Below are positions 31,288-47,366 of a stretch of DNA of 64,000 bases, one piece after another (the stretch's first letter is position 1; the number at the start of each line of letters is the position of its first letter). The position numbers and the translations under genes were made by a program. The notes below the pieces were generated by a model. The model saw only the letters and a list, made by a program, of their open reading frames with translations. It ran no database searches and was not told the origin of the DNA. The DNA lies in contig NZ_JAAAPN010000007.1 in the NCBI RefSeq assembly GCF_009909205.1, forward strand, positions 62,001 to 126,000, written 5' to 3'. The stretch comes from Aquabacterium fontiphilum. GTDB lineage: Bacteria > Pseudomonadota > Gammaproteobacteria > Burkholderiales > Burkholderiaceae_C.

Positions 31288-31343
31288 GCGGGGCTCTTTC
31301 ATGACCAGCATGCCACGCCGGGGTGATGTGGTGCAATGCGGGC

Positions 31344-32030
31344 ATGAGCCGATCCCTCGCCCGTGCAGCGTTTGCGCAGCACATCGTCGACCTGATGCGC
31401 GCCTTTGCCAGCGTGCAGGCGCGCGCGATGTTCGGCGGCCACGGGCTCTACCGCGATGGGCTGATGTTTGCGCTGCTGCTCGACGAGCGCCTGTACCTCA
31501 AGGTGGATGACGACAACCAGGCGCTGTTTGACGCCCAGGGCCTGCCGCCCTTCACCTACGTGACCAAGGATGGCAAGACCGGTAGCCTGCGCTACCACGA
31601 GGCGCCGCCGGACGCGTTTGAAGACCCGCAGATCATGGCGCAATGGGCGCGTGTGGGGTTTGAGGCGGCCGTGCGCGCGAACGCGAAAGCGACGTCGAAA
31701 AAGGCAGGGCGTCGGCTTGCAGCCAGCGGCAGCAAGGCCCGGGCTACGCGATCAACCACAGCGGGCGCCGCATTGGCCGAGCTTCGCAACCTGGGGCCGG
31801 CCAGCGCCGCCATGCTGCTGAACGCGGGCATCCGCACGCCGGCTCAACTGCGCAAACTGGGCGCCGTGCGCGCGTTCGACCAAGTCCGGCAGCGCGAGCC
31901 GAAAGCCTCGCTCAACCTGCTTTGGGCCATCGAAGGCGCGCTAAGCGACCGCCCTTGGCAGGAGGTGGCCGAAGCCGACCGGGCCAGTCTGTTGATGGCG
32001 CTGGAGGATTTGAAGCTGTTGCGAGGGTGA
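31344..32030 (+). CDS. TfoX/Sxy-family protein
   Basis: The 228-residue product joins a TfoX N-terminal domain (residues about 14-105: ARAMFGGHGLYRDGLMFALL) to a TfoX C-terminal helix-hairpin-helix-like domain (about 135-228: LRNLGPASAAMLLNAGI) through a basic Ala/Lys/Arg linker. In gamma-proteobacteria such proteins activate competence genes; the role in betaproteobacteria is inferred. It is the last core gene before the attC array, whose left end is about 40 bases downstream. Confidence 0.86.
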   Translation: MSRSLARAAFAQHIVDLMRAFASVQARAMFGGHGLYRDGLMFALLLDERLYLKVDDDNQALFDAQGLPPFTYVTKDGKTGSLRYHEAPPDAFEDPQIMAQWARVGFEAAVRANAKATSKKAGRRLAASGSKARATRSTTAGAALAELRNLGPASAAMLLNAGIRTPAQLRKLGAVRAFDQVRQREPKASLNLLWAIEGALSDRPWQEVAEADRASLLMALEDLKLLRG

Positions 32031-32068: not shown

Positions 32069-32100
32069 GGTTCGTGTCCGCGTTGACCTGATAGTCAGGC
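32069..32100 (-). repeat. Truncated attC, left end of array
   Basis: Only the first half of an attC remains. On the plus strand it reads GTCCGCGTTGACCTG followed by a decayed core GTCAGGC in place of GTTAGGC. It belongs to the same sequence family as the sites at 36819 and 42733. The partner half with the crossover point is missing. Confidence 0.75.
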
Positions 32101-32158
32101 TTGGGCGTGGAGTGGAAAGTGTTGCGGCACACGAAATGCTGATTTTCTTGTGAGCGTC

Positions 32159-32662
32159 CTAGTTCGATCGACTTGATTTAGCTAGAGCACGCCTTAGCCA
32201 GATGACAGCCAAGCCAATGATGCCCAGGGAGACACAAAGCAGGTGAAGGTGGTCCAGGGAGACGATTCGGTAAAGACCATTGCTGGCACTAAAGGGGCTA
32301 AATGGTGCAATGTCGCTGTGCATGATGCTGTCGAGCGCCACGTGGGTGTACGCGCCGAGAAATGCGCCGACCGCCACTTGCTTTACTCCCAGTGAGCGCC
32401 ATCCAAAGAGATCGGGGAGCCAAAAGCGAGATGCAAACCAGCGAAGTGCAAGGAACATGGTGATCGCACCCAACGCGGCTAAGGTTGCTCCTGCGTATGT
32501 GTGCAGGAAGGCGTGAACTGGGTTTCTGTGGTGGACCAAGTTATAGAGCGATTCCAAATCGATAAGCACATTGGTTGCACAAAACGATAGGAAGCTGACA
32601 GTTCGAGGCGACGCAGCATGTAGTGCAGCGCCCAGCCCAAAATGGAATGGAGTAATCGGCAT
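32159..32662 (-). CDS. Cassette 12: YdjM-like membrane metal-dependent hydrolase
   Basis: The 167-residue protein begins MPITPFHFGLG and has about four hydrophobic segments. Its His/Asp-rich segments (YNLVHHRNPVHAFLHT and AYTHVALDSIMHSD) match the family of putative membrane-bound metal-dependent hydrolases that includes YdjM. The reaction is not known. The ATG lies only 11 bases after the cassette junction at 32674-32680, leaving no room for a strong leader. It is the last cassette and its own attC is truncated. Confidence 0.72.
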   Translation of the reverse strand: MPITPFHFGLGAALHAASPRTVSFLSFCATNVLIDLESLYNLVHHRNPVHAFLHTYAGATLAALGAITMFLALRWFASRFWLPDLFGWRSLGVKQVAVGAFLGAYTHVALDSIMHSDIAPFSPFSASNGLYRIVSLDHLHLLCVSLGIIGLAVIWLRRALAKSSRSN

Positions 32663-32673
32663 ACGTTGTTGAG

Positions 32674-32790
32674 GTCTAACACCGAGTTCACCGGCGCCGG
32701 AGCCCGTAATGGCGGAGGGCACAAGAACCGGCCCTGAAAATGTTAAAGGCGTGGCCGGTTTTTGCGTCCGCGTGCAACGCCGAGTTAGGC
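32674..32790 (-). repeat. attC of cassette 11
   Basis: A 117-base site with outer ends GTCTAAC (32674-32680) and GTTAGGC (32784-32790). Inner boxes are CCGGCGCCGG near the left end and GCGTCCGCG near the right. The centre pairs CGGCC with GGCCGG, giving the usual long single-strand hairpin. Confidence 0.92.
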
Positions 32791-32870
32791 TGAGGCGCGG
32801 AGTGGAAGGTTTGAAAAGTACGCATAGCCCGAATTTTTTGGGTGTTGCACTTCACGTGTCAATCCGCGCT
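32791..32870 (-). repeat. Conserved attC-flanking hairpin, copy B
   Basis: On the plus strand GCGCGGA (32795-32801) pairs with TCCGCGC (32863-32869), TTGA (32811-32814) with TCAA (32859-32862), and AAGTACGCA imperfectly with TGCACTT (32846-32852). Copies occur beside three other attC sites, with compensatory changes. It lies after the stop codon of cassette 11. Confidence 0.7.
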
Positions 32871-32914
32871 GGGGCGCGAAGGCACGGCGTTTCTGTTTCA
32901 TAGACGGACTGGGA

Positions 32915-33316
32915 CTAGTTACTATGCAGGAGCCAAACCATTAAGGGAATGAAGCATAAGCATACGAGGCCGTAAGTTAGATAATTTCCTGTGCGGGGAT
33001 CGAAGTCAGGCCAGATCTTGCGCCATTGCTTACGCATGAGCAATCGACCCATGCCAATGTCGAAGGCAGCCATGAACAGCGCTAAGCCGATGCCTAAGGC
33101 CAGATGCGCTAATGGCGTGTGCAGACCGATGCTCGGCACCTGAAACAGGCAAATTCCAAAGGCAAGAACGGTTCCGGTCACTGCACTGAGTTTGATTGCT
33201 CTTTCCTTGCCGATGCAAGGCGTAACAAGTGCGGTCCTGGCAATGCCGTGCAAAGTCTCGGCGGAGGCGAGTAGCAAGCAAAGTGAGCCGATACGGACCA
33301 GAGTTTCGAGGTTCAT
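32915..33316 (-). CDS. Cassette 11: small membrane protein of unknown function
   Basis: The 133-residue protein has four predicted hydrophobic helices (about residues 8-25, 47-65, 70-93 and 115-130) and a short charged loop RKQWRKIWPDFDPRTGN before the last. I do not recognise the family. ATG at 33316 (MNLETLV) is preferred; the frame runs back through attC sequence to 33400, which is artefactual. A hairpin element and then attC follow it. Confidence 0.65.
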   Translation of the reverse strand: MNLETLVRIGSLCLLLASAETLHGIARTALVTPCIGKERAIKLSAVTGTVLAFGICLFQVPSIGLHTPLAHLALGIGLALFMAAFDIGMGRLLMRKQWRKIWPDFDPRTGNYLTYGLVCLCFIPLMVWLLHSN

Positions 33317-33334
33317 CAACGCACAGCAGATGGG

Positions 33335-33454
33335 GCCTAACGCCCAAGGTAAGCGGCGCCGGAAGGAGCGCAGCGGGTGGAGGGTACCAACAAAGCCCAT
33401 GAAAATGGCGAAGCCATGGGCTTTGTTGGCGTCCGCTTGACCGCCGAGTTAGGC
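33335..33454 (-). repeat. attC of cassette 10
   Basis: A 120-base site with ends GCCTAAC (33335-33341) and GTTAGGC (33448-33454), inner boxes GCGGCGCCGG and GGCGTCCGCTTGA, and a central stem made by AAAGCCCATG and CATGGGCTTT. It differs from the site at 40370-40489 at only about five positions. The stop codon of the preceding gene lies in its first core (GCC-TAA-C). Confidence 0.94.
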
Positions 33455-34564
33455 AACGTTGATGCCAAGCTGCGCCTCCAGTTTACAAATATCATCGTTA
33501 ATTCGTGCGAATGCTACCGAAGTCGCTTGGCGCCTAGCATCGCTGCCGATTTTCGCTCGCATGGAGTAATTTAGGTAAGACGCGTGAAGAGTCGGTCCAT
33601 CACGACCCCAGCAACATTTATAGAAATCTGCCAACGCATCGTACTGAGACTGCTCCTCACGTGCGAGGAGAGCTTTAGCGATGGCGCGAACTGCCACATC
33701 AAGCGACCAAAGACTCCAAGACGCCTCGTTGGGGGTGGACGAATACTTGCCGAATTGCTGAACTAGGCATATATCCCAGGTGGCGTTCCTTAAACCCCTT
33801 CTTAGTTTTTCCGTCGAAGGTGAGTTGATGCCTTTTAGCATTTGACCTTTTGGAGGCTGATGCGATGCGGACGCAATGCAATATAAAGATGCTGCCGCAT
33901 TATAGAAAGACTCCTCGGCCTGCCAGCGGTGAAACTCAAGGGCGGCATCAAGAGGAGGGAGCCCTCCGCGTCTAAGTGCTGCAATCTTTAGCACGTACAG
34001 GTAGTTAGGTCGCCATAACGTCAGTCGCTTCTCAAAGTTCGACTCTATTGATGGCGTGAGTACGGAAGGGTCTGATCGGATATCAGACAAGTGATCCTGC
34101 GGGATTTGGTCTGCGCGACCAAGGGCCACATCGATAAAAAATGCTGGGTCTGCGTTGTCGGCTATCCTGAAGTTGGAGTAATCCTCTAGTGCAGCCGAGT
34201 TTCCTTGTGTTGACCCATATTCATAAAGCGCCATTGATGGCTCGATAAGAATGTCGGCTAGTATGCAGAATGCTGCGCAAGCGCATGCAATGCGGGTACT
34301 TTTGGTTGATTCTATGGAGCCCACGAGGCGCTTCCCCGAGGCCAACTCAGCCAGAGGTGAAAGCAGATTTCTATCAAACAGTGCTTTGAATTCCACACCC
34401 CCGATTCTTCCGGCAGAAAGGTACTCCGAGAGATCAAATGAATAACTGTCCTCGTAGTTTCCTGTTACGAGTGGGGATGCTTCATTTAATAAATTCCGAA
34501 GTGCCATGTAGTCCTCTGGCGTAATCGGTACCCATACTGCTCCAGTGATGTTTTCATCGCTCAT
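33449..34564 (-). CDS. Cassette 10: protein of unknown function
   Basis: The 371-residue soluble protein is Ala-, Ser- and Leu-rich with long helical stretches; no signal peptide or membrane helix is evident and I recognise no motif. Its stop codon TAA is supplied by the attC core, so the last residues (GINVA) depend on that site. ATG at 34564 is eight bases from the cassette junction; a GTG at 34582 is inside the neighbouring attC. One of the largest genes in the array. Confidence 0.68.
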   Translation of the reverse strand: MSDENITGAVWVPITPEDYMALRNLLNEASPLVTGNYEDSYSFDLSEYLSAGRIGGVEFKALFDRNLLSPLAELASGKRLVGSIESTKSTRIACACAAFCILADILIEPSMALYEYGSTQGNSAALEDYSNFRIADNADPAFFIDVALGRADQIPQDHLSDIRSDPSVLTPSIESNFEKRLTLWRPNYLYVLKIAALRRGGLPPLDAALEFHRWQAEESFYNAAASLYCIASASHQPPKGQMLKGINSPSTEKLRRGLRNATWDICLVQQFGKYSSTPNEASWSLWSLDVAVRAIAKALLAREEQSQYDALADFYKCCWGRDGPTLHASYLNYSMRAKIGSDARRQATSVAFARINDDICKLEAQLGINVA

Positions 34565-34570
34565 GTAGTT

Positions 34571-34639
34571 GCCTAACGCCACGTTAACAGACGGCTGCCA
34601 GCGAAGCTGGTAGACGTCCTGTTGAACAACATGTTAGGC
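34571..34639 (-). repeat. attC of cassette 9, short type
   Basis: A 69-base site with ends GCCTAAC (34571-34577) and GTTAGGC (34633-34639). Inner arms GTTAACAG and CTGTTGAAC pair, with GCCAGC-GAA-GCTGG at the tip. It is closely related only to the other short site at 38037-38106. Confidence 0.92.
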
Positions 34640-34640
34640 G

Positions 34641-35549
34641 TCATAGCTTGGACTTGCCCGTGATGGCATCGATGTAGATGAGGCCCTTCGTTTGGGCTGC
34701 TTTGATTTTGCGATCCAGCATCTGTGAAAAAGTCATTAGTCCTTCCAAGACTACGATCAAGTCTGCACCATCTATAAACACAGTCTTTATTGCTTTGCCA
34801 GCTACCAGCGATCCAACAACATGCTCGCTATAGCCGTGGATCGAAAAGAAGAGGCCGCGCCCATACATCTTTCCCTCGATCTTGCCTGCGAACTGATAGA
34901 CCGCCTCGTTCGCCGCACTCTTGTCCTGCCACTTCGCCTCGATGATGTAGTGCTCGCCGTCGTACTTGACCGACCCGTCGATCTGTTCACCGTTCACACG
35001 GAACGGTTCCGTGACATCTAGCGAATTGAGTTTGGCTAGCTCTTGAAGAATTTCTTCCAGTGCATAACCACGTTTCGCTCCCGCAGTTTCTCCTTGAAGT
35101 AGGGAGATAAAGCGGGCCTTCAGATTAGGGAGAGTGACCGCCGGAGATCTGGCTGCTGCTTCTTTCCGCTCCCGTTCTTTGCGCTGTTCCTGTATTTTGT
35201 GATCGCGAATCTCTTGCAGGATCTTTAGCTGAGCAATTGAGCGTTCTGCTTCTGATCTGTCCAACTTCTTTAGTTTGTCGAAGTAGTAGGAATCAAACTG
35301 CTTCCAGTTGAGCAGCGATTGAAGCATTGCCCGGAACTGGCCAAGACCTTCATCAGGTTTCGCGGACAAATGATCGAACATGGCATCGACGATTGCGTAG
35401 CGATGCATGGTCTTGTAGTCACCAAGCGCTCGAATGTCCGACTTTGTGCAACTGTTGTTCTCGAAGAACGAGACGATGTCGTCCTTTGGCCATAGCACCT
35501 TCAGGATGCACTCGCGCATGCACAGCTTGATATCACTAGGGAACGTCAT
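34641..35549 (-). CDS. Cassette 9: Mrr-like restriction endonuclease with N-terminal helical domain
   Basis: The 302-residue protein has an unassigned helical domain (about 1-105), a charged coiled-coil linker (about 106-132, many Arg, Lys and Glu), and a C-terminal PD-(D/E)xK nuclease domain. Catalytic-looking residues are Glu165/166 in GYALEEIL, Asp191 in EQIDGSV, and Glu204-x-Lys206 in IIEAKW, as in Mrr-type enzymes. It probably cuts foreign or modified DNA. No methyltransferase or helicase partner is adjacent, so it may act alone. Confidence 0.8.
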   Translation of the reverse strand: MTFPSDIKLCMRECILKVLWPKDDIVSFFENNSCTKSDIRALGDYKTMHRYAIVDAMFDHLSAKPDEGLGQFRAMLQSLLNWKQFDSYYFDKLKKLDRSEAERSIAQLKILQEIRDHKIQEQRKERERKEAAARSPAVTLPNLKARFISLLQGETAGAKRGYALEEILQELAKLNSLDVTEPFRVNGEQIDGSVKYDGEHYIIEAKWQDKSAANEAVYQFAGKIEGKMYGRGLFFSIHGYSEHVVGSLVAGKAIKTVFIDGADLIVVLEGLMTFSQMLDRKIKAAQTKGLIYIDAITGKSKL

Positions 35550-35565
35550 AGAGCATGATTCTGAG

Positions 35566-35682
35566 GCCTAACGCCCAAGTTAAGCGGCGCCGGAGCCCGA
35601 TAAGGCGTAGGGTGCCAACACTGGCCATGAAAATGGCGAAGCCATGGCCAGTGTTGGCGTCCGCTTGAACGCCCAGTTAGGC
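35566..35682 (-). repeat. attC of cassette 8
   Basis: A 117-base site with ends GCCTAAC (35566-35572) and GTTAGGC (35676-35682), inner boxes TTAAGCGGCGCC and GGCGTCCGCTTGAA, and a centre pairing CAACACTGGCCATG with CATGGCCAGTGTTG. Confidence 0.94.
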
Positions 35683-35743
35683 TGGTGATAAATGCAAAAA
35701 TATTGCATTTGCTTGATTCGTCAACTTAGGCTTTTTTTAGAAA

Positions 35744-36775
35744 TCATGCTTCATGCAGCATACGTTCAAGTGCATGGAGAATCATTCTTGGCACCTCTCG
35801 AACAAGCCTGAAGTCTTCCTCATTGTCGACCAGGAATTTTTCTATGTAGGGGTTGTGGGTGCTAACCATAAGGAGTTCTTCAAACTCGCCTATGACACGC
35901 TTTTTCGCTGCGGGTGTCTTGGCGGCCTGCAACTTCGCCAGAAGAACATTCCCTTCATCGTAGATCCATGGCGTTATTTCTCGTAGCAAGCTTAGGCCGA
36001 CACGAATGCCAAGTGATGGACTTTTCGAGCCGAACATTAGTTCCTCCATCATTCCGGGATGAAAGCGACGACGGCGCTTCATGGAGCGGGAGGCTTCGCT
36101 GCGCTCAATTCTCGAGGGAAGATCTTGGAACATGATCTTGATTTCTTCGAAAAGCTTCGCAGAAGAGTTTTCGATTTCGTCGATGTTCTGGCGCTTTGAT
36201 GCGTGAGGCTGCGGCGAGCCAGCAGACAAAGTGCTGAGAATGCCATCAACGGTAGTTTTGAACTTCCCTACTTGGAAGCGAATCGTGTCCCGGTCGGGCT
36301 CAGACCCAGGGATTCGATTCACTAGTTGAAACACCAGCTTCGTTAAAGAGTCTTCGTCGTCTCCGCAGTTCTGAAACTGCGCAAATGGCCCTGTGGAAAC
36401 GTTCTTGAGCTCGATTCCGAGCGCAACTCCCAGGATGGGCGTGTCCAGCTTTCCCTTGGCCATGCCTGCCTCAAAGAGGATCCATGGCCGGTTAACGCTG
36501 CGGTCAGTTAACAGGCACACAACATCAGACGCAGACTGAATGTTTTTGATGATCTCTGGATACCACTCAACCCCGTACTCAATCCCCTGATTGCCTCGTC
36601 TGTCCGAGGTGCGAAAAGATTTAAGTACACCTGCACTTACGCTCTTGAGTAGATTGCTAAAGGCTTCCGCTAATTCAGCATCCCGAGTGTCGTGGCTAAT
36701 AAATACCAGCGGGTTGGCGGCTTTGGTAAGGGGGGTGTCAATGACGTCTTTTTCTTCTGCCAAGTTGTTCTCCAC
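35744..36775 (-). CDS. Cassette 8: TIR-domain protein
   Basis: The 343-residue protein has an N-terminal TIR domain (about 22-150): PLVFISHDTRD on strand A, and WILFEAGMAKGK with Glu102 at the position of the catalytic Glu of NAD-cleaving TIR enzymes. The remaining two thirds are helical and charged, including a MKRRRR patch around residue 230, and may sense or oligomerise. It starts with GTG (VENNLAEE) with no clear ribosome-binding site. Bacterial TIR proteins commonly deplete NAD in anti-phage defence. No Thoeris or nucleotide-cyclase partner lies next to it. Confidence 0.82.
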   Translation of the reverse strand: MENNLAEEKDVIDTPLTKAANPLVFISHDTRDAELAEAFSNLLKSVSAGVLKSFRTSDRRGNQGIEYGVEWYPEIIKNIQSASDVVCLLTDRSVNRPWILFEAGMAKGKLDTPILGVALGIELKNVSTGPFAQFQNCGDDEDSLTKLVFQLVNRIPGSEPDRDTIRFQVGKFKTTVDGILSTLSAGSPQPHASKRQNIDEIENSSAKLFEEIKIMFQDLPSRIERSEASRSMKRRRRFHPGMMEELMFGSKSPSLGIRVGLSLLREITPWIYDEGNVLLAKLQAAKTPAAKKRVIGEFEELLMVSTHNPYIEKFLVDNEEDFRLVREVPRMILHALERMLHEA

Positions 36776-36818
36776 AAAAGTTGTGGTTGGGGGTGGCTCT
36801 CGAATGGTTCGCCATGAA

Positions 36819-36936
36819 GCCTAACTACCAAGGTAACCGGCGCCGGAGCCCGCCAGGGCGGAGGGCACAAGCAAGGGTCATGAAAATGCCGAAGGCATGG
36901 CCCTTGGTTGCGTCCGCGTTGACCTGACAGTTAGGC
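36819..36936 (-). repeat. attC of cassette 7
   Basis: A 118-base site with ends GCCTAAC (36819-36825) and GTTAGGC (36930-36936), inner boxes ACCGGCGCCGG and GCGTCCGCGTTGA. It differs from the site at 42733-42850 at only two positions. Confidence 0.94.
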
Positions 36937-37015
36937 TGGGGCGCGAAGTGGAAGGTTTTCATAATGCGTAAGCCTGCACTTTTGAGTGTCGCATTTCGTG
37001 TTTGAAAACGCACGC
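36937..37015 (-). repeat. Conserved attC-flanking hairpin, copy C
   Basis: Plus-strand TTTTCA (36956-36961) pairs with TGAAAA (37003-37008), and AATGCG (36963-36968) with CGCATT (36990-36995); CACT and AGTG close the tip. Relative to copies B and E the outer pair is swapped (TTCA/TGAA instead of TTGA/TCAA), a compensatory change. Confidence 0.7.
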
Positions 37016-37063
37016 ACCACGGATATTAGTTTTAGGTGTTGCTACACATTTTTGAGCCACGCA

Positions 37064-38026
37064 TTACTCTGAAAGACCATCGTAGTTGGATGCAAATGAC
37101 TCTTGCGCTAATGCATAGCCGAATGCCTTTGAATGTTCAACCGTGTAACCTTGGGTAGGCAATAAGTTCGTGAGGATGTCTTGCTTATACTGAGGCATTC
37201 TTGGATCAAAGCAAATAGAATCTATGAAGTCATGAGGGATTTCAGCGAAGATGTAGTCTTCCAGTTCACCAGCCTGAGCCGATTCGAAGAGGTTTTGAAG
37301 AGGATTATTTCTTTTGAGCCACACTTCATGAGGGAGATCGTTGCGGACGCCGGCATAAAGCACGCCACGAACTTCGCGTTCGTGGCTGAAGGCGGCGTCT
37401 TTTAAGAAAACACCATCACCATTTGCGGCGCTGTTAGCCTGAAATTCAAGATAGTCAGCGCGAAACTTGGTAGGGTCAGAAAGATACGTGGGATCTGCGC
37501 TAGCTTTTTCCATTGTTGCATTGTGGGATTTGCTGTAGCGCTCACGGATGACGTCTCTTAGCGTAAAGTAGTTTACATACCTCACCGGTTTTACTTGGTA
37601 GTGCCAGGCAATCGGAGCTCTCGTCCCATGCTCGTGGGCATGATTTGTCCAACTCCTCTGGCTCAGGCACTTATTCAGAGCATCGCATAGCTTGCCTGCA
37701 GTCGTGCTGACGCGAATGCCGGATTTATCAGAAGAATATAGAGACCACATTGCTATGCTGTCCGGCTCGGTAGTCCAGCATGTGGCATAGTGATTTTCTC
37801 TTGTAAGGGCGTGCTCCTTCTCTATTTCTGCTCTATCGATGTACTTTTGTCGAAAAATGGTGTTGTCTTGCATTACTAAGATGCTACCAACGCCCTCGTT
37901 TTTATCCTCAAAGGTGGCGAACTTCGATAGACGAATTCTTCTTCGTCCTGCTATTTCGTAAAAATCGAATAAAGACACAAACCGGAATAATCTTGTTTTG
38001 GGATCAAGGGGTGAGGCAACAGACAT
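37064..38026 (-). CDS. Cassette 7: DUF2971-like protein
   Basis: The 320-residue protein has DUF2971 hallmarks: an N-terminal LFRFVSLFDF, then CWTTEPDSIAMWSLYSSDKSGIRV, and a later AFSHEREVRGVLY. Proteins of this type are frequent in genomic islands and defence-rich regions, but no activity is established to my knowledge. The ATG at 38026 lies 11 bases from the neighbouring attC. Its 3' side carries the conserved hairpin before attC. Confidence 0.74.
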   Translation of the reverse strand: MSVASPLDPKTRLFRFVSLFDFYEIAGRRRIRLSKFATFEDKNEGVGSILVMQDNTIFRQKYIDRAEIEKEHALTRENHYATCWTTEPDSIAMWSLYSSDKSGIRVSTTAGKLCDALNKCLSQRSWTNHAHEHGTRAPIAWHYQVKPVRYVNYFTLRDVIRERYSKSHNATMEKASADPTYLSDPTKFRADYLEFQANSAANGDGVFLKDAAFSHEREVRGVLYAGVRNDLPHEVWLKRNNPLQNLFESAQAGELEDYIFAEIPHDFIDSICFDPRMPQYKQDILTNLLPTQGYTVEHSKAFGYALAQESFASNYDGLSE

Positions 38027-38036
38027 GGTTTAATGG

Positions 38037-38106
38037 GCCTAACGCCCGCGTTAACAGGCGACTGCCGGCGGAGCCGGTAGACGTCCTGTTGAACAACCGG
38101 TTAGGC
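38037..38106 (-). repeat. attC of cassette 6, short type
   Basis: A 70-base site with ends GCCTAAC (38037-38043) and GTTAGGC (38100-38106); arms GTTAACAGG and CCTGTTGAAC pair and the tip is CCGGC-GGA-GCCGG. Related to the site at 34571-34639. Confidence 0.92.
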
Positions 38107-38183
38107 ATCGGCCGGAATGATCGGACGCAATTAAAGCGTAATCAAGTGCCATATTTGATGATTATCTGATTTCTCACGTCGGC

Positions 38184-38621
38184 TCACTGTGCGTCGGCTG
38201 TTAACGCCCGACGGATGCGTTTAGCGAACACTGCGTTATGTACAAAGAAAGTTGCTATGAGAAGGTAGCCAAAAAATGCCGGTAGCACTGCATCTGGACG
38301 ACTATATTGCAGATCCATGTACAACACACCCGCAAAGAATGTGATCAGCAACAGTATCCATAAATTTAAATCGACGTGCGGTGCGTGTATTTTTCCGGTC
38401 TCATGTATTCGTATCCCCAGGACTTTTTGCCAATCGTTTTCTCGATCCAAAACAGCGGTGATTGTTTGGCCGGAAATCAATTCGGGATTTCCCTTCACCG
38501 AAATCGAGAAATATTTCTCCCCATCCGATTCAAAACTAAACCAGGTCTCTCGAGTGTTTTCTGAGAAGTTTTTTGGCTGAACATCGAATACGCGGTCCAT
38601 GCGAATAGTGACGGTTTGCAT
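38184..38621 (-). CDS. Cassette 6: protein with two C-terminal membrane helices, unknown function
   Basis: The 145-residue protein has a soluble N-terminal half of alternating strands (TVTIRMDRVFDV through LDRENDWQKVLG) and two hydrophobic helices (about 87-105 and 113-131). The soluble part resembles small beta-rich domains found next to membrane anchors, but I recognise no family. ATG at 38621; the frame upstream to 38717 is translated attC. About 77 bases separate its stop from attC. Confidence 0.65.
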   Translation of the reverse strand: MQTVTIRMDRVFDVQPKNFSENTRETWFSFESDGEKYFSISVKGNPELISGQTITAVLDRENDWQKVLGIRIHETGKIHAPHVDLNLWILLLITFFAGVLYMDLQYSRPDAVLPAFFGYLLIATFFVHNAVFAKRIRRALTADAQ

Positions 38622-38639
38622 AGGTCGATTTATTGAGTG

Positions 38640-38755
38640 GCCTAACTTCTGGTTAACCGGCGCCGGAGCGCGAAGCGCGCAGGGCACCAACAGAGGCCAT
38701 GAAAATGCCGAAGGCATGGCCTCTGTTGGCGTCCGCGTTCAACCTACAGTTAGAC
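38640..38755 (-). repeat. attC of cassette 5
   Basis: A 116-base site with ends GCCTAAC (38640-38646) and GTTAGAC (38749-38755), inner boxes ACCGGCGCCGG and GGCGTCCGCGTT, centre pairing AACAGAGGCCATG with CATGGCCTCTGTT. The stop codon of the HNH gene lies in its first core. Confidence 0.94.
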
Positions 38756-39628
38756 ATTTTTCGCCTCAAGCGGCTGTTTTGCAGATATTTTAATGTTAGG
38801 CGATACTATTTCGACCAGAACTCGCCGAAATGACATTTTTACTAACCCATGATCTGGATTTAGATATATAACTTGACCCAAATCGAAATCACCTTCATGC
38901 GGCAACTCATCTGTAAATGCTGGCGCGTTCAGCATGCCAACATACCTTCCCAGAACCCCAACAAAAACCGCCAATCTGTTCTTGCTTGGAACTAAGCCTA
39001 CAACTGAATAGGGCGACGCCAGTTCGCATATTTTTCGAAATATTTGAACTTGAGGTTGGTTTTCCGATTGCAGATCGGTGTCAACTAATGTCTCGAAATT
39101 TTTTAATGTATCCCTCAATTCTTTGAGAGATCTGTTCATCAGCATTCGCAATTCATCATGCTTTACGTGGTGTTGAAATTTTTCTCCGTAAACAAATTGC
39201 CCTGCTGATAGCGCAACTTTTGCACAGAACCTAATACATAAATGGATGTCAACTTCAACTGAGAACGTTATGTTCTCGGGAAGTTGATTATTGAATGCCG
39301 TCTTTGATATTGGATCCCAAGCTTTTAGGCCTCCGTGCTGATCCAAACTAATCCGTAACGGGCGATTGCTACTCATTCCCCGAGCATTCTTTGTTACAAA
39401 AACTGGTTTTTTGCCGCTATGTCCTTTTGTCGCGTGCTTGTTTCGGCGATTGAGAATGAAAAAGTCATTTGCCATTGCGCCATCTATTTTGCTTCCAACA
39501 GCAGAGTTGAAAGCTCTGTCAACTGGGATGACAAAGGCGTTCAGACCTCCCAAAGCCAAAGGAATGATGTGCTCAGGAGAGCACTGATCCTGCCTTAGGA
39601 GCGAATTTGTATAGGGGCAGTACGGCAT
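38750..39628 (-). CDS. Cassette 5: HNH endonuclease-like protein
   Basis: The 292-residue protein begins with a short Cys-containing motif (PYCPYTNS) and then CSPEHIIPLALGG, the first part of an HNH nuclease fold, with a likely second-site Asn in DRAFNSAVG. The remaining 220 residues show no motif I know and may give specificity. The gene is clearly AT-rich. Its stop TAA is provided by the attC core (GTC-TAA-C). Possible role in cutting invading DNA; not shown by the sequence. Confidence 0.75.
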   Translation of the reverse strand: MPYCPYTNSLLRQDQCSPEHIIPLALGGLNAFVIPVDRAFNSAVGSKIDGAMANDFFILNRRNKHATKGHSGKKPVFVTKNARGMSSNRPLRISLDQHGGLKAWDPISKTAFNNQLPENITFSVEVDIHLCIRFCAKVALSAGQFVYGEKFQHHVKHDELRMLMNRSLKELRDTLKNFETLVDTDLQSENQPQVQIFRKICELASPYSVVGLVPSKNRLAVFVGVLGRYVGMLNAPAFTDELPHEGDFDLGQVIYLNPDHGLVKMSFRRVLVEIVSPNIKISAKQPLEAKNV

Positions 39629-39643
39629 TGACGCTCTTGAAAT

Positions 39644-39728
39644 GTCTAACGCCCAAGTTCAGGGGCGCCCATAAGGCATGGCCGGAGCGATGCGACGTGT
39701 GAGCGTCCCCTGCAACGCCCAGTTAGGC
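39644..39728 (-). repeat. attC of cassette 4, intermediate length
   Basis: An 85-base site with ends GTCTAAC (39644-39650) and GTTAGGC (39722-39728). Inner boxes are less standard: AGTTCAGGGGCGCC on the left and GAGCGTCCCCTGCAAC on the right, which pair over GGGGCGC/GCGTCCCC. Confidence 0.88.
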
Positions 39729-39925
39729 CAAGGTGCAAGTAGCAGGGCCTTTGCGCGGCCAGCGAGCCCACACACGAGGCGCCAGCCTGGTGTGTGCGAT
39801 CAGCTGCAGTGGCAGCTTCCGAGATGAACCGTGCCATCACGCCTCCCTTTGCGTATGGCGTCAGCCACGCGCTGACGAATGCCTCAATCTAACGTACGTT
39901 TAACCCGTGCGGCGAGGGCGGCAGG

Positions 39926-40351
39926 TCACTTTGAGCGACGCACCGCTTGCCAAACTTGAAAGGCGATGATGAGTGGCCCACCGATCACGATGATGGCCCA
40001 TGTTGGTACATAAAATCCGCGCCTACTTTCGTAGGCCACGCTCGGAGTCGCAAGCGTGTGGACGTCTGGGTTCTTGGGGTCGACGTGTACCGTCACCTTT
40101 GCTCCAACGCTAACGTCGGTGCAGTGCTTTGGGGCGTTGGGCTCATTGGTGCCAATGTGTCGCTTGCCGTTGAAGTAGAACTCGTACCAATACTGTCCGT
40201 GGTTATTGCAGTTCAACGAGTAGACCGTACCCTCGATAGGAACGCTTCGCTCCGCCAACGCTTGGAACTCCGATGCGTTGTTGTAGCAACCGGCGAGAGC
40301 TGTGGCCATGAGAACCATGGCGGTAGTGTGCATACGAATAAGGGCGGGCAT
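39926..40351 (-). CDS. Cassette 4: small lipoprotein with C-terminal membrane helix
   Basis: The 141-residue product has a signal peptide ending in a lipobox (ATALAGC), a soluble strand-rich domain with several Cys and His residues (SLNCNNHGQYWYEFYFNGK), and a C-terminal hydrophobic helix (WAIIVIGGPLIIAFQVW). The overall layout recalls DUF3592-like proteins, at low confidence. An internal ATG at 40333 would give a shorter signal peptide. About 197 bases without a gene separate its stop from attC. Confidence 0.66.
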   Translation of the reverse strand: MPALIRMHTTAMVLMATALAGCYNNASEFQALAERSVPIEGTVYSLNCNNHGQYWYEFYFNGKRHIGTNEPNAPKHCTDVSVGAKVTVHVDPKNPDVHTLATPSVAYESRRGFYVPTWAIIVIGGPLIIAFQVWQAVRRSK

Positions 40352-40369
40352 GCAATGAGCGGTCTTTGG

Positions 40370-40489
40370 GCCTAACGCCCAAGGTAAGCGGCGCCGGAAG
40401 GAGCGCAGCGAGTGGAGGGTACCATCAAAGCCCATGAAAATGGCGAAGCCATGGGCTTTGTTGGCGTCCGCTTGACCGATCAGTTAGGC
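40370..40489 (-). repeat. attC of cassette 3
   Basis: A 120-base site with ends GCCTAAC (40370-40376) and GTTAGGC (40483-40489), nearly identical to the site at 33335-33454. The preceding caspase-like gene reads through the first core and stops just inside the site (TGA at 40480-40482). Confidence 0.94.
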
Positions 40490-41991
40490 GCTGGATTTGG
40501 CGGGGCATTCGCAACCAATGCAGTTTCAGCGTTTGCTTCAGTCTGAGTGGCTAATGATTCCAGGTACTTTCGGATGTCTAGTTCACCGTTCCGGGCCGCT
40601 TCTCGCCACACGATGTCTGGATCAGCAACCACGCTGCGCCACGGATAGCTCTGATATTTCCACTGAACCTCGGAAAGTTCAGGTGCTTTTGCATTCCACC
40701 CTTTTTGAGTAAGGCGTACGGTTGCTGAAAGCACCATTACATCGGTAAGGGAGTGCACGAGCCCAATATATATGTTGAATGCCGGAAGGGAGGGATGCTG
40801 GGAAACCAGTGAGAGTTCGGCCACCTCCATGGGCAATGACTCAGTAACTTCAAGTGTGCTGGGTCGATAACGAGTTTCAACAATGTATTCGTCATCATTC
40901 TCTTTCGTTACTATCCATTTCCTCCCTAGGCCACCACTTAAGATTGAGCCAATCGGATCTTTGGGGACGCGAACTTTGTATGCTTCTTGGCTGACTTTGG
41001 CAAAGTACCTCTTGGGCCAGCCCTGCTCGTCAGCAAAGGTTGCGACGGCTTTTGATTTTGGAATTTGCGCAAGTTTGCCATCTATCTTTGCGGAGAGAGA
41101 GTAAAAGCGGCTTACGATTGAGTCAGATATTTTTGCGTTAATGATGCTCGTTTTGGTTGACTCGATTGCTTGCAAAACCTGTTCGTGGGGCACAAACTGG
41201 CTATCGCGGTGCCTAACTTCTATCTCTATCTGATTGGCGATGGTGAGTTCTGGCTTTTCAGCAGTCGTCGACTTGGTTCGTGCGTCGTGCAGAGACCTTA
41301 TATCTTCACCGACATGGCAAAAGACTTCCAATCCGCTGCCTTGGTTGACAAAAAATGGTGTTTGATCGCTGGAGGTTACGAAGGCATCTGCGAGTGCTGC
41401 TTGTATGTCCCGATAAAGGATGGCCCCTTCCCTCTTCGATAGTGCCGCCTCTATCCATTTGGATGTAAAGAAACTTTCTGTGGCAGAGGCATAGGAGGAT
41501 TGATCCTGTCGGCTTGATGCCATACAGATAAATGACTTCAGTTGACTGCGGCCGAGTGCTTTTTCAAATCCCGCGTTTGCATCCTTAATGTAAGGTGAGC
41601 CTGATTGGCATGCATCAATAATTTTGACGGCCACATTAGGCTTTACGCTTCGCAAGAGGTCGTCGAGCTCTGCGTTACTTATAGATGTTGTAGCGGGTCG
41701 AGCGGAGTCAAAGTCACTGCAGCATAGCAATGCATCATTCTGGAATAGGCCGTGGCCAGAGAAGTAAATGAAGGCCTCTTCGATGTCCTCTCTGTCTTGG
41801 TATTTTGCAAAGAAACTTCTCAGCGAGTCTTTGACTTGGCTTGCGGTTGTTTGGTCTGTGATAATTTGAATATCGTCATATTTCCTGGTTGCGGACAGCA
41901 GTGTTCGCATGTTCTCTGCATCTAGCTTGCAGGCGGGTAATGGAATTTCTGATAGGTAGTTTGATATTCCAATCAGGATTGCGATATTCAA
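40480..41991 (-). CDS. Cassette 3: caspase-like (peptidase C14) protein
   Basis: The 503-residue protein has an N-terminal caspase fold (about 1-230). The catalytic His is His80 in YFSGHG and the Cys is Cys128 in IIDACQSG. The C-terminal 270 residues are unassigned and could be a sensor or a target-binding part. It begins with TTG, supported by AGGAG six bases upstream (41998-42002), one of the best ribosome-binding sites in the array. Bacterial caspase-like proteases often trigger cell death upon infection. No partner gene (gasdermin, Avs, CRISPR) lies beside it. Confidence 0.85.
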   Translation of the reverse strand: MNIAILIGISNYLSEIPLPACKLDAENMRTLLSATRKYDDIQIITDQTTASQVKDSLRSFFAKYQDREDIEEAFIYFSGHGLFQNDALLCCSDFDSARPATTSISNAELDDLLRSVKPNVAVKIIDACQSGSPYIKDANAGFEKALGRSQLKSFICMASSRQDQSSYASATESFFTSKWIEAALSKREGAILYRDIQAALADAFVTSSDQTPFFVNQGSGLEVFCHVGEDIRSLHDARTKSTTAEKPELTIANQIEIEVRHRDSQFVPHEQVLQAIESTKTSIINAKISDSIVSRFYSLSAKIDGKLAQIPKSKAVATFADEQGWPKRYFAKVSQEAYKVRVPKDPIGSILSGGLGRKWIVTKENDDEYIVETRYRPSTLEVTESLPMEVAELSLVSQHPSLPAFNIYIGLVHSLTDVMVLSATVRLTQKGWNAKAPELSEVQWKYQSYPWRSVVADPDIVWREAARNGELDIRKYLESLATQTEANAETALVANAPPNPAPN

Positions 41992-41997
41992 GTTAAT

Positions 41998-42002
41998 CTC
42001 CT
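41998..42002 (-). promoter_or_regulatory. Ribosome-binding site that fixes a TTG start
   Basis: AGGAG on the minus strand lies six bases before the TTG at 41991. There is no ATG at the conserved N-terminus of the caspase-like protein, so this site decides the start. Confidence 0.85.
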
Positions 42003-42044
42003 GTGTGATGAAGATATTTTGCTGTGCTCAAAACTACTGCCGGT

Positions 42045-42161
42045 GCCTAACGCCTTAGTTAACTGGCGCCGGATCCCGCAGGGCGGAGGGCACCGTCATG
42101 GGCCATGAAAATGCCGAAGGCATGGCCCATGACGGCGTCCACGTTGAACGCCCAGTTAGGC
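42045..42161 (-). repeat. attC of cassette 2
   Basis: A 117-base site with ends GCCTAAC (42045-42051) and GTTAGGC (42155-42161), inner boxes TTAACTGGCGCCGG and GGCGTCCACGTTGAA, centre pairing GTCATGGGCCATG with CATGGCCCATGAC. Confidence 0.94.
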
Positions 42162-42235
42162 AGGGGGGCAGGGGCACGGCTTTCATAGTGGCTAGCTTGG
42201 GTGTTGGGGGTCGCACTTGACGTGTGAAGTCCGCA
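42162..42235 (-). repeat. Conserved attC-flanking hairpin, copy D
   Basis: The most diverged copy. Plus-strand TTTCA (42181-42185) pairs with TGAA (42225-42228), and AGTGGC with GCACT across a bulge; the loop keeps GGGTGTTGG. It sits directly between the stop codon of cassette 2 (42236) and its attC. Confidence 0.55.
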
Positions 42236-42673
42236 TCACGGTGTGGACCCTCCTCTGCTGCGAGGGGCAAGTCGCCGCCGAAACTTAAGCAGCTCTTGTA
42301 CGCGAACATCCTTCCACAGCCATACGCCTTCTGACCAAAAAATGGGAAGACTTAGGAGAAAGGCGAAAAGCCGGTTGACACCTGGCTGTGTGCTGAATGG
42401 ACTAAGTACAAGCAGTACAAGTCCGACAGCGACGAACATGATGAAGACAAAGAAGGCAGCTTGGGCAGAGAGCATCTCCCTCTGAATAAGCAGATCGTCA
42501 CGCCGAAGTTCGCGGACTCGTCGAAGCGACTTGGCCCGGGAGCCTCGGAACAACCGGCGGACTATAGGCGAGAGGTATCTCCAAACTCGCGGGACGAGCA
42601 TGATCAATAGCGCTGGAACGAAGGCGGTAAACCACCACGCAGGATCGCGCAGATTGTTAAGAATGCTTTCCAT
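42236..42673 (-). CDS. Cassette 2: membrane protein of unknown function
   Basis: The 145-residue protein has three hydrophobic segments (about 15-30, 70-90 and 98-112) separated by a strongly basic stretch (RRLFRGSRAKSLRRVRELRR, about 38-57), and a basic C-terminus. No family recognised. ATG at 42673 (MESILNN) is used; the upstream part of the frame is attC sequence. Confidence 0.66.
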   Translation of the reverse strand: MESILNNLRDPAWWFTAFVPALLIMLVPRVWRYLSPIVRRLFRGSRAKSLRRVRELRRDDLLIQREMLSAQAAFFVFIMFVAVGLVLLVLSPFSTQPGVNRLFAFLLSLPIFWSEGVWLWKDVRVQELLKFRRRLAPRSRGGSTP

Positions 42674-42700
42674 TCTTGTTTGTTGACGAGTTGTAGGAGG

Positions 42701-42732
42701 GCCTAACGAACTAGGTAACTGGCGCCGGAGGG
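42701..42732 (-). repeat. Isolated attC half-site
   Basis: GCCTAAC (42701-42707) is followed by AGGTAACTGGCGCCGGAG and then breaks off directly into the next, complete attC. It is the crossover-side half of a site whose other half is missing. Confidence 0.85.
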
Positions 42733-42850
42733 GCCTAACTACCAAGGTAACCGGCGCCGGAGCCCGCCAGGGCGGAGGGCACAAGCAAGGGCCATGAAAA
42801 TGCCGCAGGCATGGCCCTTGGTTGCGTCCGCGTTGACCTGACAGTTAGGC
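42733..42850 (-). repeat. attC of cassette 1
   Basis: A 118-base site with ends GCCTAAC (42733-42739) and GTTAGGC (42844-42850), two mismatches from the site at 36819-36936. It abuts the isolated half-site at 42701-42732. Confidence 0.94.
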
Positions 42851-42927
42851 TGGGGCGCGGAGTGGAAGGTTTTGATAGTACGACGGCCTGCATTTTTGGT
42901 GTTGTACTTTACGTGTCAATCCACGCT
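42851..42927 (-). repeat. Conserved attC-flanking hairpin, copy E
   Basis: Plus-strand GCGCGGA (42855-42861) pairs with TCCACGC (42920-42926) with one mismatch, TTGA (42872-42875) with TCAA (42916-42919), and AGTACGAC (42877-42884) with GTTGTACT (42901-42908) through one G-T pair. The right edge overlaps the last codons of the cassette 1 gene. Confidence 0.7.
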
Positions 42928-43440
42928 GGTGATAGATGCATCACGCATTGGGTGCGTAGTTTCTTGTGTTTCCTGCCTGGGAGGCAATTCATTTACAAAC
43001 CATTCATAGTACTTGCGCATGACAGGGTAGAAGATTTCTCGAGAGTCAACTCCGTCGATGCGGTAGTAGACCTGCCCCAGCGAATCTGTGCAGGGGCTGT
43101 CACATGTCATGCCTCTCGTCACAGATGTGCTGCCACCGCGCTTGACGTTGTGGTGCTTACTTCGATTGCATAAAGACTTAATGGTGCGAAACTCTTCCAA
43201 TGCACCGATGTCAAAGTAAAGTTGCTCTTGAGGCAAAAGCGCGGCACCAGTAGCTCGCTTTTTCTCCATCGCTTCATGGCTGCTCCCTGCAATCCATTCG
43301 CGTAAATGATTCAAGGAAAAGAGCAGAAACAAAAGCACCCGACTGGTTGGTTCATGATCATATTCGACGATGGCCTTCTGAACTTCCTTGAAGAGATCCA
43401 GCGGACTTTCAAGCTCAAATAAATCAATAGAGTTGTTCAT
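42916..43440 (-). CDS. Cassette 1: predicted helical protein of unknown function
   Basis: The 174-residue protein is helical, with a segment EFRTIKSLCNRSKHHNVK that resembles the Asn/Arg...His signature of HEPN-like proteins; this is a weak hint only. ATG at 43440 (MNNSIDLF) is chosen; the frame reaches back to 43509 across the array boundary. It is the first cassette in reading order. Its 3' end overlaps the conserved hairpin by 12 bases. Confidence 0.65.
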   Translation of the reverse strand: MNNSIDLFELESPLDLFKEVQKAIVEYDHEPTSRVLLFLLFSLNHLREWIAGSSHEAMEKKRATGAALLPQEQLYFDIGALEEFRTIKSLCNRSKHHNVKRGGSTSVTRGMTCDSPCTDSLGQVYYRIDGVDSREIFYPVMRKYYEWFVNELPPRQETQETTHPMRDASITSVD

Positions 43441-43464
43441 TTGGTCGGCAAGACAGGGTGAATG

Positions 43465-43518
43465 GCCTAACTGGATATAGACCGCAAAAGCGACGATTTT
43501 TGCCGCCAAAAGTGACGG
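43465..43518 (-). other. Right boundary core site with direct repeats, possible attI relic
   Basis: A single core GTTAGGC (minus strand, 43471-43465) opens the first cassette; no attC lies outside it. Beyond it are two imperfect direct repeats, CCGCAAAAGCGACGA (43482-43496) and CCGCCAAAAGTGACGG (43503-43518). Integron attI sites also carry integrase-binding repeats outside their core. No integrase gene follows, so the assignment is inference. Confidence 0.45.
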
Positions 43519-43780
43519 ATAACCTGTGAGGCAGGGGCCGGCGTGACGGCTAACCTGGACAGGCCGTTCCGTCGTAAGTGCTTGACCCGCAAGCAGTAAT
43601 GGGCATTTGGCTCCATGTCCCTCCCAGGATATGTGGCGTCGTGTTCTGCGTGATGAACAGTCTACACGTGTGACTGTGCTGCACGGGGCGCTTTCCGCGC
43701 CTTGCCGCGTGGGCGCGCATGCGCAGGAGCGGCCTGCCCACAGGCCGGTCCCAATGGGCGGGAGATTTCGCGAACCGCCG
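43519..43780 (-). other. Non-coding stretch between array and mfd
   Basis: I see no supported gene. A hairpin GGCCTG-CCCA-CAGGCC (43727-43742 region) lies shortly after the mfd stop codon and may be a terminator without a good T-run. Translation in all frames gives no integrase or transposase remnant that I recognise. Confidence 0.5.
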
Positions 43781-46700: not shown

Positions 46701-47275
46701 ACCCGGTAGGGCACGGGCGAGCCCATGGGAAACAGGTCGATCAGGCCGCCGCGCACGGCGTACTCGCCAGGCGACACGACCTGGCTGACATGGTTGTAGC
46801 CCGCCAGCGTGAGTTGGGCCTTGAGCGCGGCCTCGTCCAACTTCTGCTTTTGCTTGAAATGGAAGGTGTAGGCCGCCAGGAAGGACGGAGGCGCCAGCCG
46901 GGTCAGGGCCGTGGTGGCGGGCAGCAGCACCACATCCACACCGGTTTCGCCTTCGCCCTTCACGCCCTGCTGCATGCGCCACAGCGTGGCCAGGCGCTCC
47001 GAGATCAGATCCTGGTGCGGCGAGAAGGTGTCATAGGGCAGCGTTTCCCAGTCCGGGAAGATCGCACAGCGCAGGCCCGGCGCAAAAAAGGCGATCTCGT
47101 CCATCAACCGCACGGCATCGGCCGGATCGGCCGTCATCAGCGTGGTCAACTGCCCCTGGGCCTTGCGGGCCTGCGCGAACTGCGCCAGCAACAGGGCATC
47201 GGCCGAGCCGGTAGGGCGGGGCACGGTGTAGCGTTTGCCTTGGGCGATCGAGGGCAGGGGCAGGGCGGGCAGCAT
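43781..47275 (-). CDS. mfd: Transcription-repair coupling factor Mfd
   Basis: The 1164-residue translocase removes stalled RNA polymerase and recruits UvrA. It has an N-terminal UvrB-like region (PDWETLPYD, SVERGG), an RNA-polymerase-interaction domain (VGDPVVHSNHGIGRYQG), and a superfamily-2 helicase core: VCGDVGFGKTEVALRA, LAPTTLLAEQH, IDEEHRFG, TLTATPIPRTL, and QLRGRVGRS. The start ATG is at 47275; the frame's TTG at 47308 is unlikely. A GC-rich hairpin followed by a T-rich run lies in its leader (about 47287-47315). Confidence 0.97.
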   Translation of the reverse strand: MLPALPLPSIAQGKRYTVPRPTGSADALLLAQFAQARKAQGQLTTLMTADPADAVRLMDEIAFFAPGLRCAIFPDWETLPYDTFSPHQDLISERLATLWRMQQGVKGEGETGVDVVLLPATTALTRLAPPSFLAAYTFHFKQKQKLDEAALKAQLTLAGYNHVSQVVSPGEYAVRGGLIDLFPMGSPVPYRVDLFGDEVDSIRTFDPDTQRSLYPVPEVRLLPGREFPMDEAARGAFRNRWRERIEGDPTKSRIYKDIGSGVATAGIEYYLPLFFDETATFFQHLGDPGKGGAAVVLHGDIDEALRRFWTETRERHRFLQHDPERPILPPETLFLKPEDFFTLANAHAQLVVRGSEPVDWARPLPALSVERGGQDPLRKLEQHIAQTPARVLVVAESPGRRESLMELLRDHRIDLPSLDGLQAFVDSDHRHAITVAPLAAGFIWHDPTQPERSLHLVTETELFDAAPATRRRRKHDQATDIDTLVKDLSELNVGDPVVHSNHGIGRYQGLINLDLGEGPSEFLHLEYADKAVLYVPVSQLHLISRYTGVSAEEAPLHKLGSPQWDKAKRKAAEQVRDTAAELLNLYARRAAREGHAFRFSAQDYEAFATSFGFEETPDQRAAIHAVIQDMISPRPMDRLVCGDVGFGKTEVALRAMFVAVTSGKQVALLAPTTLLAEQHYQNIADRFAQWPVKVAEMSRFRSAKEIKGAMQGLEDGTIDIVVGTHKLLSDSVKFKRLGLLIIDEEHRFGVRHKEAIKAMRADIDVLTLTATPIPRTLGMAMEGLRDLSVIATAPQRRLAIKTFVRSENSSVIREAVLRELKRGGQVYFLHNEVETIENRRDKLAELIPEARIAIAHGQMPERELERVMRDFVAQRHNVLLCSTIIETGIDVPSANTIVITRADKFGLAQLHQLRGRVGRSHHQAYAYLLVPDVEGLTKQAAQRLDAIQNMEELGSGFYLAMHDLEIRGAGEVLGDNQSGNMMEVGFQLYNEMLAEAVRALKSGKEPDLLSPSGMFGSNTDINLHAPALLPDAYCGDVHVRLSLYKRLATADSVDKIETMLEEIVDRFGKLPAQAQTLFDTHKLRVLCKPYGVVKIDAAPGVINVTFRPNPPVDPMRIIELVQKNRHIKLAGNEKLRIEKELKDPKDRAQYVRDLMRQLGQPLAH

Positions 47276-47366
47276 GGCGGTCAGAAAAGACAAAGCGCCC
47301 GGGCACAAGGGTGGCCGGGCGAATCAGTTCACTGGCTGCAGATTGTAGGTGGGCGAGAATGACGGG

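Follow-up and report, generated by a model that had tools for sequence, protein, structure and literature searches.

How does an array of integron cassettes come to stand between two core genes when no integrase gene accompanies it? The question is raised by a locus of Aquabacterium fontiphilum, a species represented here by one genome, a 3.65 Mb draft of 37 contigs. The window, i.e., the whole 64-kb stretch of DNA that was analysed, comprises positions 62001-126000 of the 250 kb contig C7 and carries twelve cassettes between mfd and a tfoX-like gene. The 207-nt block at the head of this array is read, on the basis of homology, as an attI site with its leader. The reading to which we lean, though by a small measure, is that of an attI-headed satellite array, into which an integrase working in trans would have inserted cassettes at the array's own attI, and which would now be stalled. 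G000 denotes the genome under study, G034 the sister species, and other G numbers the relatives.

An attI site with leader at the head of the array

Between mfd and tfoX, the minus strand read from mfd presents attI, 12 cassettes, and 11 complete attC sites; the array and both flanks are contained in one 250-kb contig. The initial annotation, which was made from the sequence of the window, had placed twelve minus-strand genes between the two core genes, and this is confirmed by 12 intact minus-strand open reading frames (ORFs; 134-503 aa), each of which begins 13-60 nt past a GTTRRRY cassette core site. The extent assigned to the array, 32069-43471, holds as far as it goes, and the feature runs on to 43671 with attI and its leader. 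The proximal elements and the two flanks are as follows.

43781-47308, minus strand: mfd core gene, flank (Pfam; the G034 copy is 96.5% identical)
43672-43780, no strand assigned: spacer of 109 nt from the mfd stop to the attI leader, with no match to an intI remnant, LexA box, or promoter
43465-43671, minus strand: attI with leader; core site GTTAGGC at 43465-43471 and two AGGTTA-CCGTCAC direct repeats
31323-32030, plus strand: tfoX-like core gene, flank (Pfam TfoX_N and TfoX_C)

Two regions provide the comparison for the block, namely the region between intI and the first cassette on contig C3 of the same genome, where the resident integron is located, and the corresponding region of the sister species. 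The C7 region matches the former at 72% over 210 nt and the latter at 80% over 209 nt. The alignment of the three reveals the two AGGTTA-CCGTCAC direct repeats, a common CCTGGGAGG motif, and a common GTCTATATCC-AGTTAGGC end, with identities of 70.1% for C7-C3, 75.8% for C7-G034, and 70.1% for C3-G034. In BLAST, the C7 block ceases to resemble the other two attI regions at points within one base of each other (43669-43670), which in C3 is ~60 nt before the LexA box. The 109-nt spacer beyond this point has no similarity to intI by tblastn and no LexA box. By homology, the array thus has at its proximal end the attI expected of a complete chromosomal integron, and because it possesses its own landing site, it is no random deposit. 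The descent from a real integron that had been favoured initially is supported. The uniform direction of the genes, which together with the size of the array had been advanced in favour of such descent, is not in itself an argument for a complete integron at this place, since successive insertion at one site would give the same result.

The integron-integrase model TIGR02249 has no match at E <= 0.001 anywhere on C7, the window included, and neither the profile search nor tblastn located the intI in cis that a complete chromosomal integron would have. With 11 complete attC sites and no integrase nearby, the locus conforms to the definition of a cluster of attC sites lacking integron-integrases (CALIN).

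attC sites of the array

Our own covariance models were built because Rfam, at gathering thresholds, gave no match in the window. The attC model was trained on 20 sites from this genome (8 from the window and 12 from contig C3), from which three short sites (34571, 38037, and 39644) were excluded. It recovers all 11 complete sites with E values of 2.5e-38 to 4.1e-4, the bottom strand being on the plus strand. Five weaker matches (E 0.0036-0.13) represent the opposite strand of the same array sites, owing to the palindromic nature of the sites, and the best match in the window outside the array has E = 0.57. All 11 complete sites have canonical end boxes (RYYYAAC and GTTRRRY); eight sites are 116-120 nt in length, and three are short (69, 70, and 85 nt). 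When folded as single-stranded DNA, nine of the bottom strands exceed shuffled versions of themselves in stability (z -3.6 to -6.2), and those of attC4 (z -1.2) and attC11 (z -0.6) do not. The sites and two partial sites, all assigned to the minus strand, are listed in the order in which they are met from mfd.

42733-42850, minus strand: attC1 (covariance model E 2.5e-38; 117/118 identical to a C3 and a G034 attC)
42701-42732, minus strand: right half of an attC (direct repeat family D4)
42045-42161, minus strand: attC2 (E 1.8e-35)
40370-40489, minus strand: attC3 (E 1.4e-29)
39644-39728, minus strand: attC4 (E 2.7e-6; fold z -1.2; 96.4% over 83 nt to a G014 attC)
38640-38755, minus strand: attC5 (E 3.5e-34)
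38037-38106, minus strand: attC6, short type (E 2.6e-6)
36819-36936, minus strand: attC7 (E 3.7e-38; 99.2% to a C3 and a G034 attC)
35566-35682, minus strand: attC8 (E 6.7e-35; 97.4% to a C13 attC)
34571-34639, minus strand: attC9, short type (E 4.1e-4; fold z -4.75)
33335-33454, minus strand: attC10 (E 5.9e-30; 98.3% to a G003 attC)
32674-32790, minus strand: attC11 (E 4.9e-29; fold z -0.6)
32076-32100, minus strand: truncated attC of cassette 12, a 25-nt 5' arm with an altered R'' (GCCTGAC), of direct repeat family D6 and with no covariance model match

The half site at 42701-42732 is probably the remnant of a lost cassette. In the whole genome, at least 43 matches of the attC model were obtained at E <= 0.01, which is a lower bound from 150 scored candidates.

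The initial annotation had described an attC array without an adjacent integrase, for which it had named as support ten or more attC matches with no intI within 10 kb; eleven covariance matches and the lack of any intI match on C7 agree with this description. It had also placed an attC with canonical ends after each gene, which is correct for eleven genes, the twelfth being followed by the 25-nt arm, and the folding that it asked of the sites is displayed by nine of the eleven. The lack of an integrase is true of the window and of C7, and the search of the genome found one on C3.

The mfd-tfoX site in relatives

For a comparison of the site, 20 relatives were drawn from 26 other genomes in which TfoX had a match; in all 20, tfoX and mfd are convergent. 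The stop-to-stop gap amounts to 2 bp in G034, to 7, 9, 9, 48, and 49 bp in five others, and to 1.1-3.7 kb in the other 14; in the genome under study it is 11,750 bp. The empty site of G034 reads TGA-AC-TCA and has no attI-like sequence, and no match of the attC model at E <= 0.1 was found in the mfd-tfoX loci of any of the 20 relatives. Given the near-empty gap in relatives and the lack of attC in all 20, the array is most simply viewed as a gain in this lineage. The gap of the 14 relatives is filled by other DNA with no attC match, which marks the site as a tolerant insertion place.

The resident integron on contig C3

The profile search of the whole genome yielded one locus above the cut-off of the curated IntI model, C3:23209-24024, situated beside parC. 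It is one open frame matching profile positions 1-71 and 114-315, and in comparison with the intact gene of the sister species 129 nt (43 codons) are missing in frame. The missing segment is kept in G034 and in 7 further relatives that were aligned, and alignment to the solved integrase 2a3v (labelled IntI4) leaves residues ~76-113 uncovered. To judge from this deletion, the shortened integrase is probably nonfunctional; an intact integrase gene in the same genome, which service in trans would call for, is thus lacking. With no other intI detected, the system has probably come to rest in this strain. Upstream of intI, both C3 and G034 have a perfect LexA box (CTGT-N8-ACAG), which suggests SOS control of the C3 gene; the pattern has one match in the whole 64-kb window.

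In the 32 kb of C3 that were examined, 27 attC sites are present, all on the cassette side of intI. G034 has the same parC-intI neighbourhood with an intact intI, and its parC attI is located 2.2 kb from intI with two decayed attC between. This interval (G034:C5, L045 11132-13338) contains toxin-antitoxin-like genes, as judged by eye. Within the parC array of C3, an IS110-family-like transposase ORF (C3:1719-2693, by eye) lies beside the attC at 3032-3142, whose R' side is interrupted; we take this ORF to resemble the attC-targeting group known as IS1111. A tyrosine-recombinase frame of 432 aa (C3:7130-7888) lies between two attC of the same array, as if borne by a cassette.

attI modules elsewhere in the genus

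A first attI model, trained on the C7, C3, and G034 parC copies only, was run over 42 genomes of the genus and found 11 further copies at E < 1e-3 besides the three training copies. In three cases, an attI block heads an integrase-less array beside a core gene: the C7 array, an array beside rimO on contig C13 of the same genome, and an array beside glmS in G034. The second satellite of this genome, C13:4493-4680, matches the model at E 2e-8 and is followed by five attC sites (four found by the covariance model and one of 70 nt). The attI beside glmS in the sister species (C2:353425-353585, E 1.4e-16) is followed by a ParA-like gene, recognised by eye, and an attC. Over ~1.5 kb, the rimO loci of G034, G009, G006, and G014 have no attI (E <= 1) and no attC (best E 0.65), and the glmS loci of G000, G009, G006, and G014 likewise have no attI (E <= 1) and no attC (best E 0.74).

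Additional modules are observed near integrase genes. G021 has three attI modules 1.5-5.8 kb from one intI with attC in between, and G011 has two tandem modules beside intI. The two attI copies of G003 were not counted as satellites, since the short array contigs on which they lie could be parts of its main array. When the model was broadened to 16 training copies, it gave 19 modules at E < 1e-3, these 16 included, spread over 10 of 41 genomes. As a control, none of the eight genomes without an IntI match (E <= 1e-40) has a first-model attI at E < 1e-3, the best value being 0.007 in G010; 25 of the 34 intI-bearing genomes likewise lack a first-model match at this threshold. The attI types vary within the genus, as seen by eye.

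G009, G025, and G014 carry attC arrays also on contigs apart from that of intI. By eye, the G014 arrays on intI-less contigs (L157 near 13789; L158 near 8 kb) start like G014's own, different attI. An insertion carrying what by eye is an IS66-type transposase interrupts the intI of G038:C3 (L188 8303-12329), which is flanked by an attC array and, on its other side, by an attI-like block.

Sharing of attC sites and cassettes

The sites and cassettes of the array were compared with fetched loci of this genome (the C3, C13, and C10 stretches) and of relatives. For five of the 11 attC sites (1, 6, 7, 8, and 9), the best match, ties counted, is found within the other arrays of this genome. The best matches of attC2 and attC11 are no higher than 86.1% and 80.0%, respectively. 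Cassette 4 agrees over its first 117 nt with the first cassette at the intact G037 integron (97.4% identity), the comparison reaching to the end of that contig. These identities indicate that the cassettes are drawn from a common pool. At least some of them seem to postdate the divergence of the attI copies, because the attC and cassette identities reach ~97-99% and those of attI only 70-76%. Such an age difference is expected if the C7 attI was used after the separation.

Origin of the array

The formation of an attI-headed satellite array, which we favour by that small measure, may be pictured as follows. An attI and leader block would have come to lie in the gap of a few bp between the convergent mfd and tfoX. 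Its most likely source would be a segment of an array that carried an attI module among its cassettes, an arrangement still present in G021. Cassettes would then have entered the C7 attI successively through the action in trans of an integron integrase, for which the IntI beside parC in this genome is the most likely candidate. With the loss of 43 codons from the C3 intI, the C7, rimO, and parC arrays would probably all have become stalled.

Several observations weigh against this sequence of events. With 75.8% identity to the attI of the sister species and 70.1% to the attI resident on C3, the C7 attI is nearer to the former and is therefore no simple copy of the latter in its present form. 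There is no sigma-70-type promoter match ahead of the array, between 43400 and 43800. The left boundary has no clean integrase cut site, the sole GTT of the spacer being followed by CGC, and the right boundary of the array is a broken attC. The best match of six of the 11 attC sites (2, 3, 4, 5, 10, and 11) is in other species, so that interspecies transfer explains as much as local exchange. No whole cassette is common to C7 and the C3, C13, and C10 stretches; only the tails of cassettes 1, 7, and 11 are. The attI model has no match in the stretches read of the integrase-less arrays of G009, G025, and G014, a result which says little, because the model misses the resident attI of G009 and G014 as well. 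Finally, the genome is a draft of 37 contigs, in which C3 and C7 are separate, and the intI deletion is read from this assembly.

Alternatively, a complete integron with intI, attI, and cassettes was inserted between mfd and tfoX and its intI was lost in place. The attI and leader are kept on the correct side, and damage to intI is seen twice, at parC in this genome and in G038, where the transposase that splits the gene is of IS66 type by eye; this explanation is therefore a serious rival. Nevertheless, the 109-nt spacer retains neither an intI remnant nor a LexA box, and the similarity to both attI regions ends at the same point (43669-43670), ~60 nt short of the C3 LexA box. Loss in place also requires separate full insertions with clean intI losses at rimO, at mfd, and at glmS in G034. 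We regard it as unlikely, for all its seriousness.

Horizontal transfer from the integron of another species could have delivered attI and cassettes as one block, which the parC integrase never served. The closer relation of the C7 attI to the G034 attI than to the C3 attI is in line with such a transfer, as are the six attC sites best matched in other species and the lack of a whole cassette in common with the other arrays of this genome. It is at odds with the five sites whose best match, ties counted, is in C3 or C13 of the same genome, and we rate it as unlikely, a little more so than loss in place, to which it is the second serious rival beside it.

Insertion by IntI at a chromosomal site other than attI (attG type) next to mfd would give an off-target CALIN. 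Such insertion at attG sites is reported, as cited in PMC12444791, and is compatible with the uniform orientation, as single-point insertion would produce it. This is in contrast to the ~207 nt ahead of cassette 1, which resemble two attI and leader regions far beyond a core site, and to the empty G034 site (TGA-AC-TCA), which has no such sequence. With attI sequence standing upstream of the first cassette, an off-target origin is largely rejected and seems very improbable. Equally improbable is a misassembly that joined part of the parC array between mfd and tfoX: highly similar attC sites do hamper assembly (PMC9024848, in part), but the C7 attI differs in sequence from that of C3, the cassette bodies are absent from the C3, C13, and C10 stretches save for the three tails, and both flanks are in one 250-kb contig. 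The initial annotation had named intI loss and off-target insertion as possible origins of such arrays, a choice that leaves out the array's own attI, the resident shortened intI, and the second attI-headed array.

Cassette cargo

Pfam was applied to all 12 cassette proteins, and PADLOC and NCBIfam to 10 of them (cassettes 1-10); cassettes 2 and 6 were scanned in a longer-ORF form.

42916-43440, minus strand: cassette 1 ORF, 174 aa; no match in Pfam, PADLOC, or NCBIfam
42236-42673, minus strand: cassette 2 ORF, 145 aa, membrane-protein-like by eye; no match in Pfam, PADLOC, or NCBIfam
40480-41991, minus strand: cassette 3 ORF, 503 aa, caspase-like peptidase (Pfam Peptidase_C14 E 1.3e-17; PADLOC caspase E 4.3e-14)
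39926-40351, minus strand: cassette 4 ORF, 141 aa, DUF3592 (Pfam E 6.8e-7)
39729-39893, minus strand: stretch without an ORF following cassette 4; it begins with an internal GTTAGAT core and recurs in arrays of other species
38750-39628, minus strand: cassette 5 ORF, 292 aa; no match in Pfam, PADLOC, or NCBIfam
38184-38621, minus strand: cassette 6 ORF, 145 aa; no match in Pfam, PADLOC, or NCBIfam
37064-38026, minus strand: cassette 7 ORF, 320 aa, DUF2971 (Pfam E 5.1e-6; PADLOC candidate PDC-S31 E 1.4e-25)
35744-36775, minus strand: cassette 8 ORF, 343 aa, TIR_2 domain (Pfam E 5.2e-7; PADLOC TIR-TM E 5.7e-10)
34641-35549, minus strand: cassette 9 ORF, 302 aa, Mrr_cat restriction endonuclease domain (Pfam E 2.4e-6)
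33449-34564, minus strand: cassette 10 ORF, 371 aa; no match in Pfam, PADLOC, or NCBIfam
32915-33319, minus strand: cassette 11 ORF, 134 aa, membrane-protein-like by eye; no Pfam match
32159-32662, minus strand: cassette 12 ORF, 167 aa, membrane-protein-like by eye; no Pfam match

On the reading of these domains, the cargo appears to include defence-like genes (caspase-like, TIR, Mrr-type, and DUF2971). Among the 10 proteins scanned with NCBIfam, nothing exceeds the model cut-offs; cassette 3 scores 68.7 bits with NF047832, below the 140-bit cut-off of that model. The N-terminus of cassette 5 may be HNH-like, as judged by eye. The ORF-less stretch at 39729-39893 recurs at 88-93% in G014 (six copies), G009, and G034, at 76-92% in G001, and at 82% in G006.

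Relation to known integrons and implications

As 11 tandem attC sites with no intI nearby, the C7 array would be called a CALIN by IntegronFinder; it differs from the entity so defined in bearing a recognisable attI with leader. IntegronFinder does not detect attI outside class 1 integrons, according to PMC9024848, and under the label CALIN an attI of this kind, which standard software does not search for, goes unnoticed. CALINs are about as frequent as complete integrons in the same source (2961 vs 2760). A sedentary chromosomal integron has the same cassette and attC build and a proximal attI, and a resident one is present in the same genome. This is in contrast to the C7 array, which lacks intI in cis, and to the genome as a whole, which has two attI-headed arrays beyond the resident integron.

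For Xanthomonas, PMC12444791 describes CALINs outside the resident ilvD locus in about half of the genomes and frequent decay of intI, and it states that a functional IntI can mobilise CALINs in trans. Those CALINs resemble the C7 array in being integrase-less arrays beside core genes at recurrent places; unlike C7, which has attI, they are reported without attI in the portion of that paper used here. Delta-attI-type cassettes of class 1 and 2 integrons also carry attI sequence within arrays, and in most of them 14-18 nt of attI stand where an attC would be, as described in PMC12901181; partial attI in mobile-integron arrays recombine where tested (same study). The blocks described here, in contrast, comprise ~150-207 nt with a leader, and head arrays or stand between cassettes. 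A study of Treponema describes one attI per integron, and intI loss, in the portion considered (PMC3607928). In searches of an open-access library, no report of attI-headed CALINs was found, nor of duplicate or internal attI.

CALINs may originate by decay or by off-target insertion. An attI heads the CALIN described here, a second CALIN of this genome, and one of the sister species. This provides a test usable on other genomes, in that an attI model derived from the resident integron is sought ahead of integrase-less arrays. As a tentative and rather doubtful extension, the integron of the genus might be a distributed system, in which attI-leader modules multiply within arrays and at new places, each seeding an array, and one integrase fills all of them in trans; CALINs in general may then often be unseen attI-headed satellites. 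If this were general, several arrays, each with a landing site of its own, would depend on one integrase, and this would alter the views of cassette order, expression, and loss.

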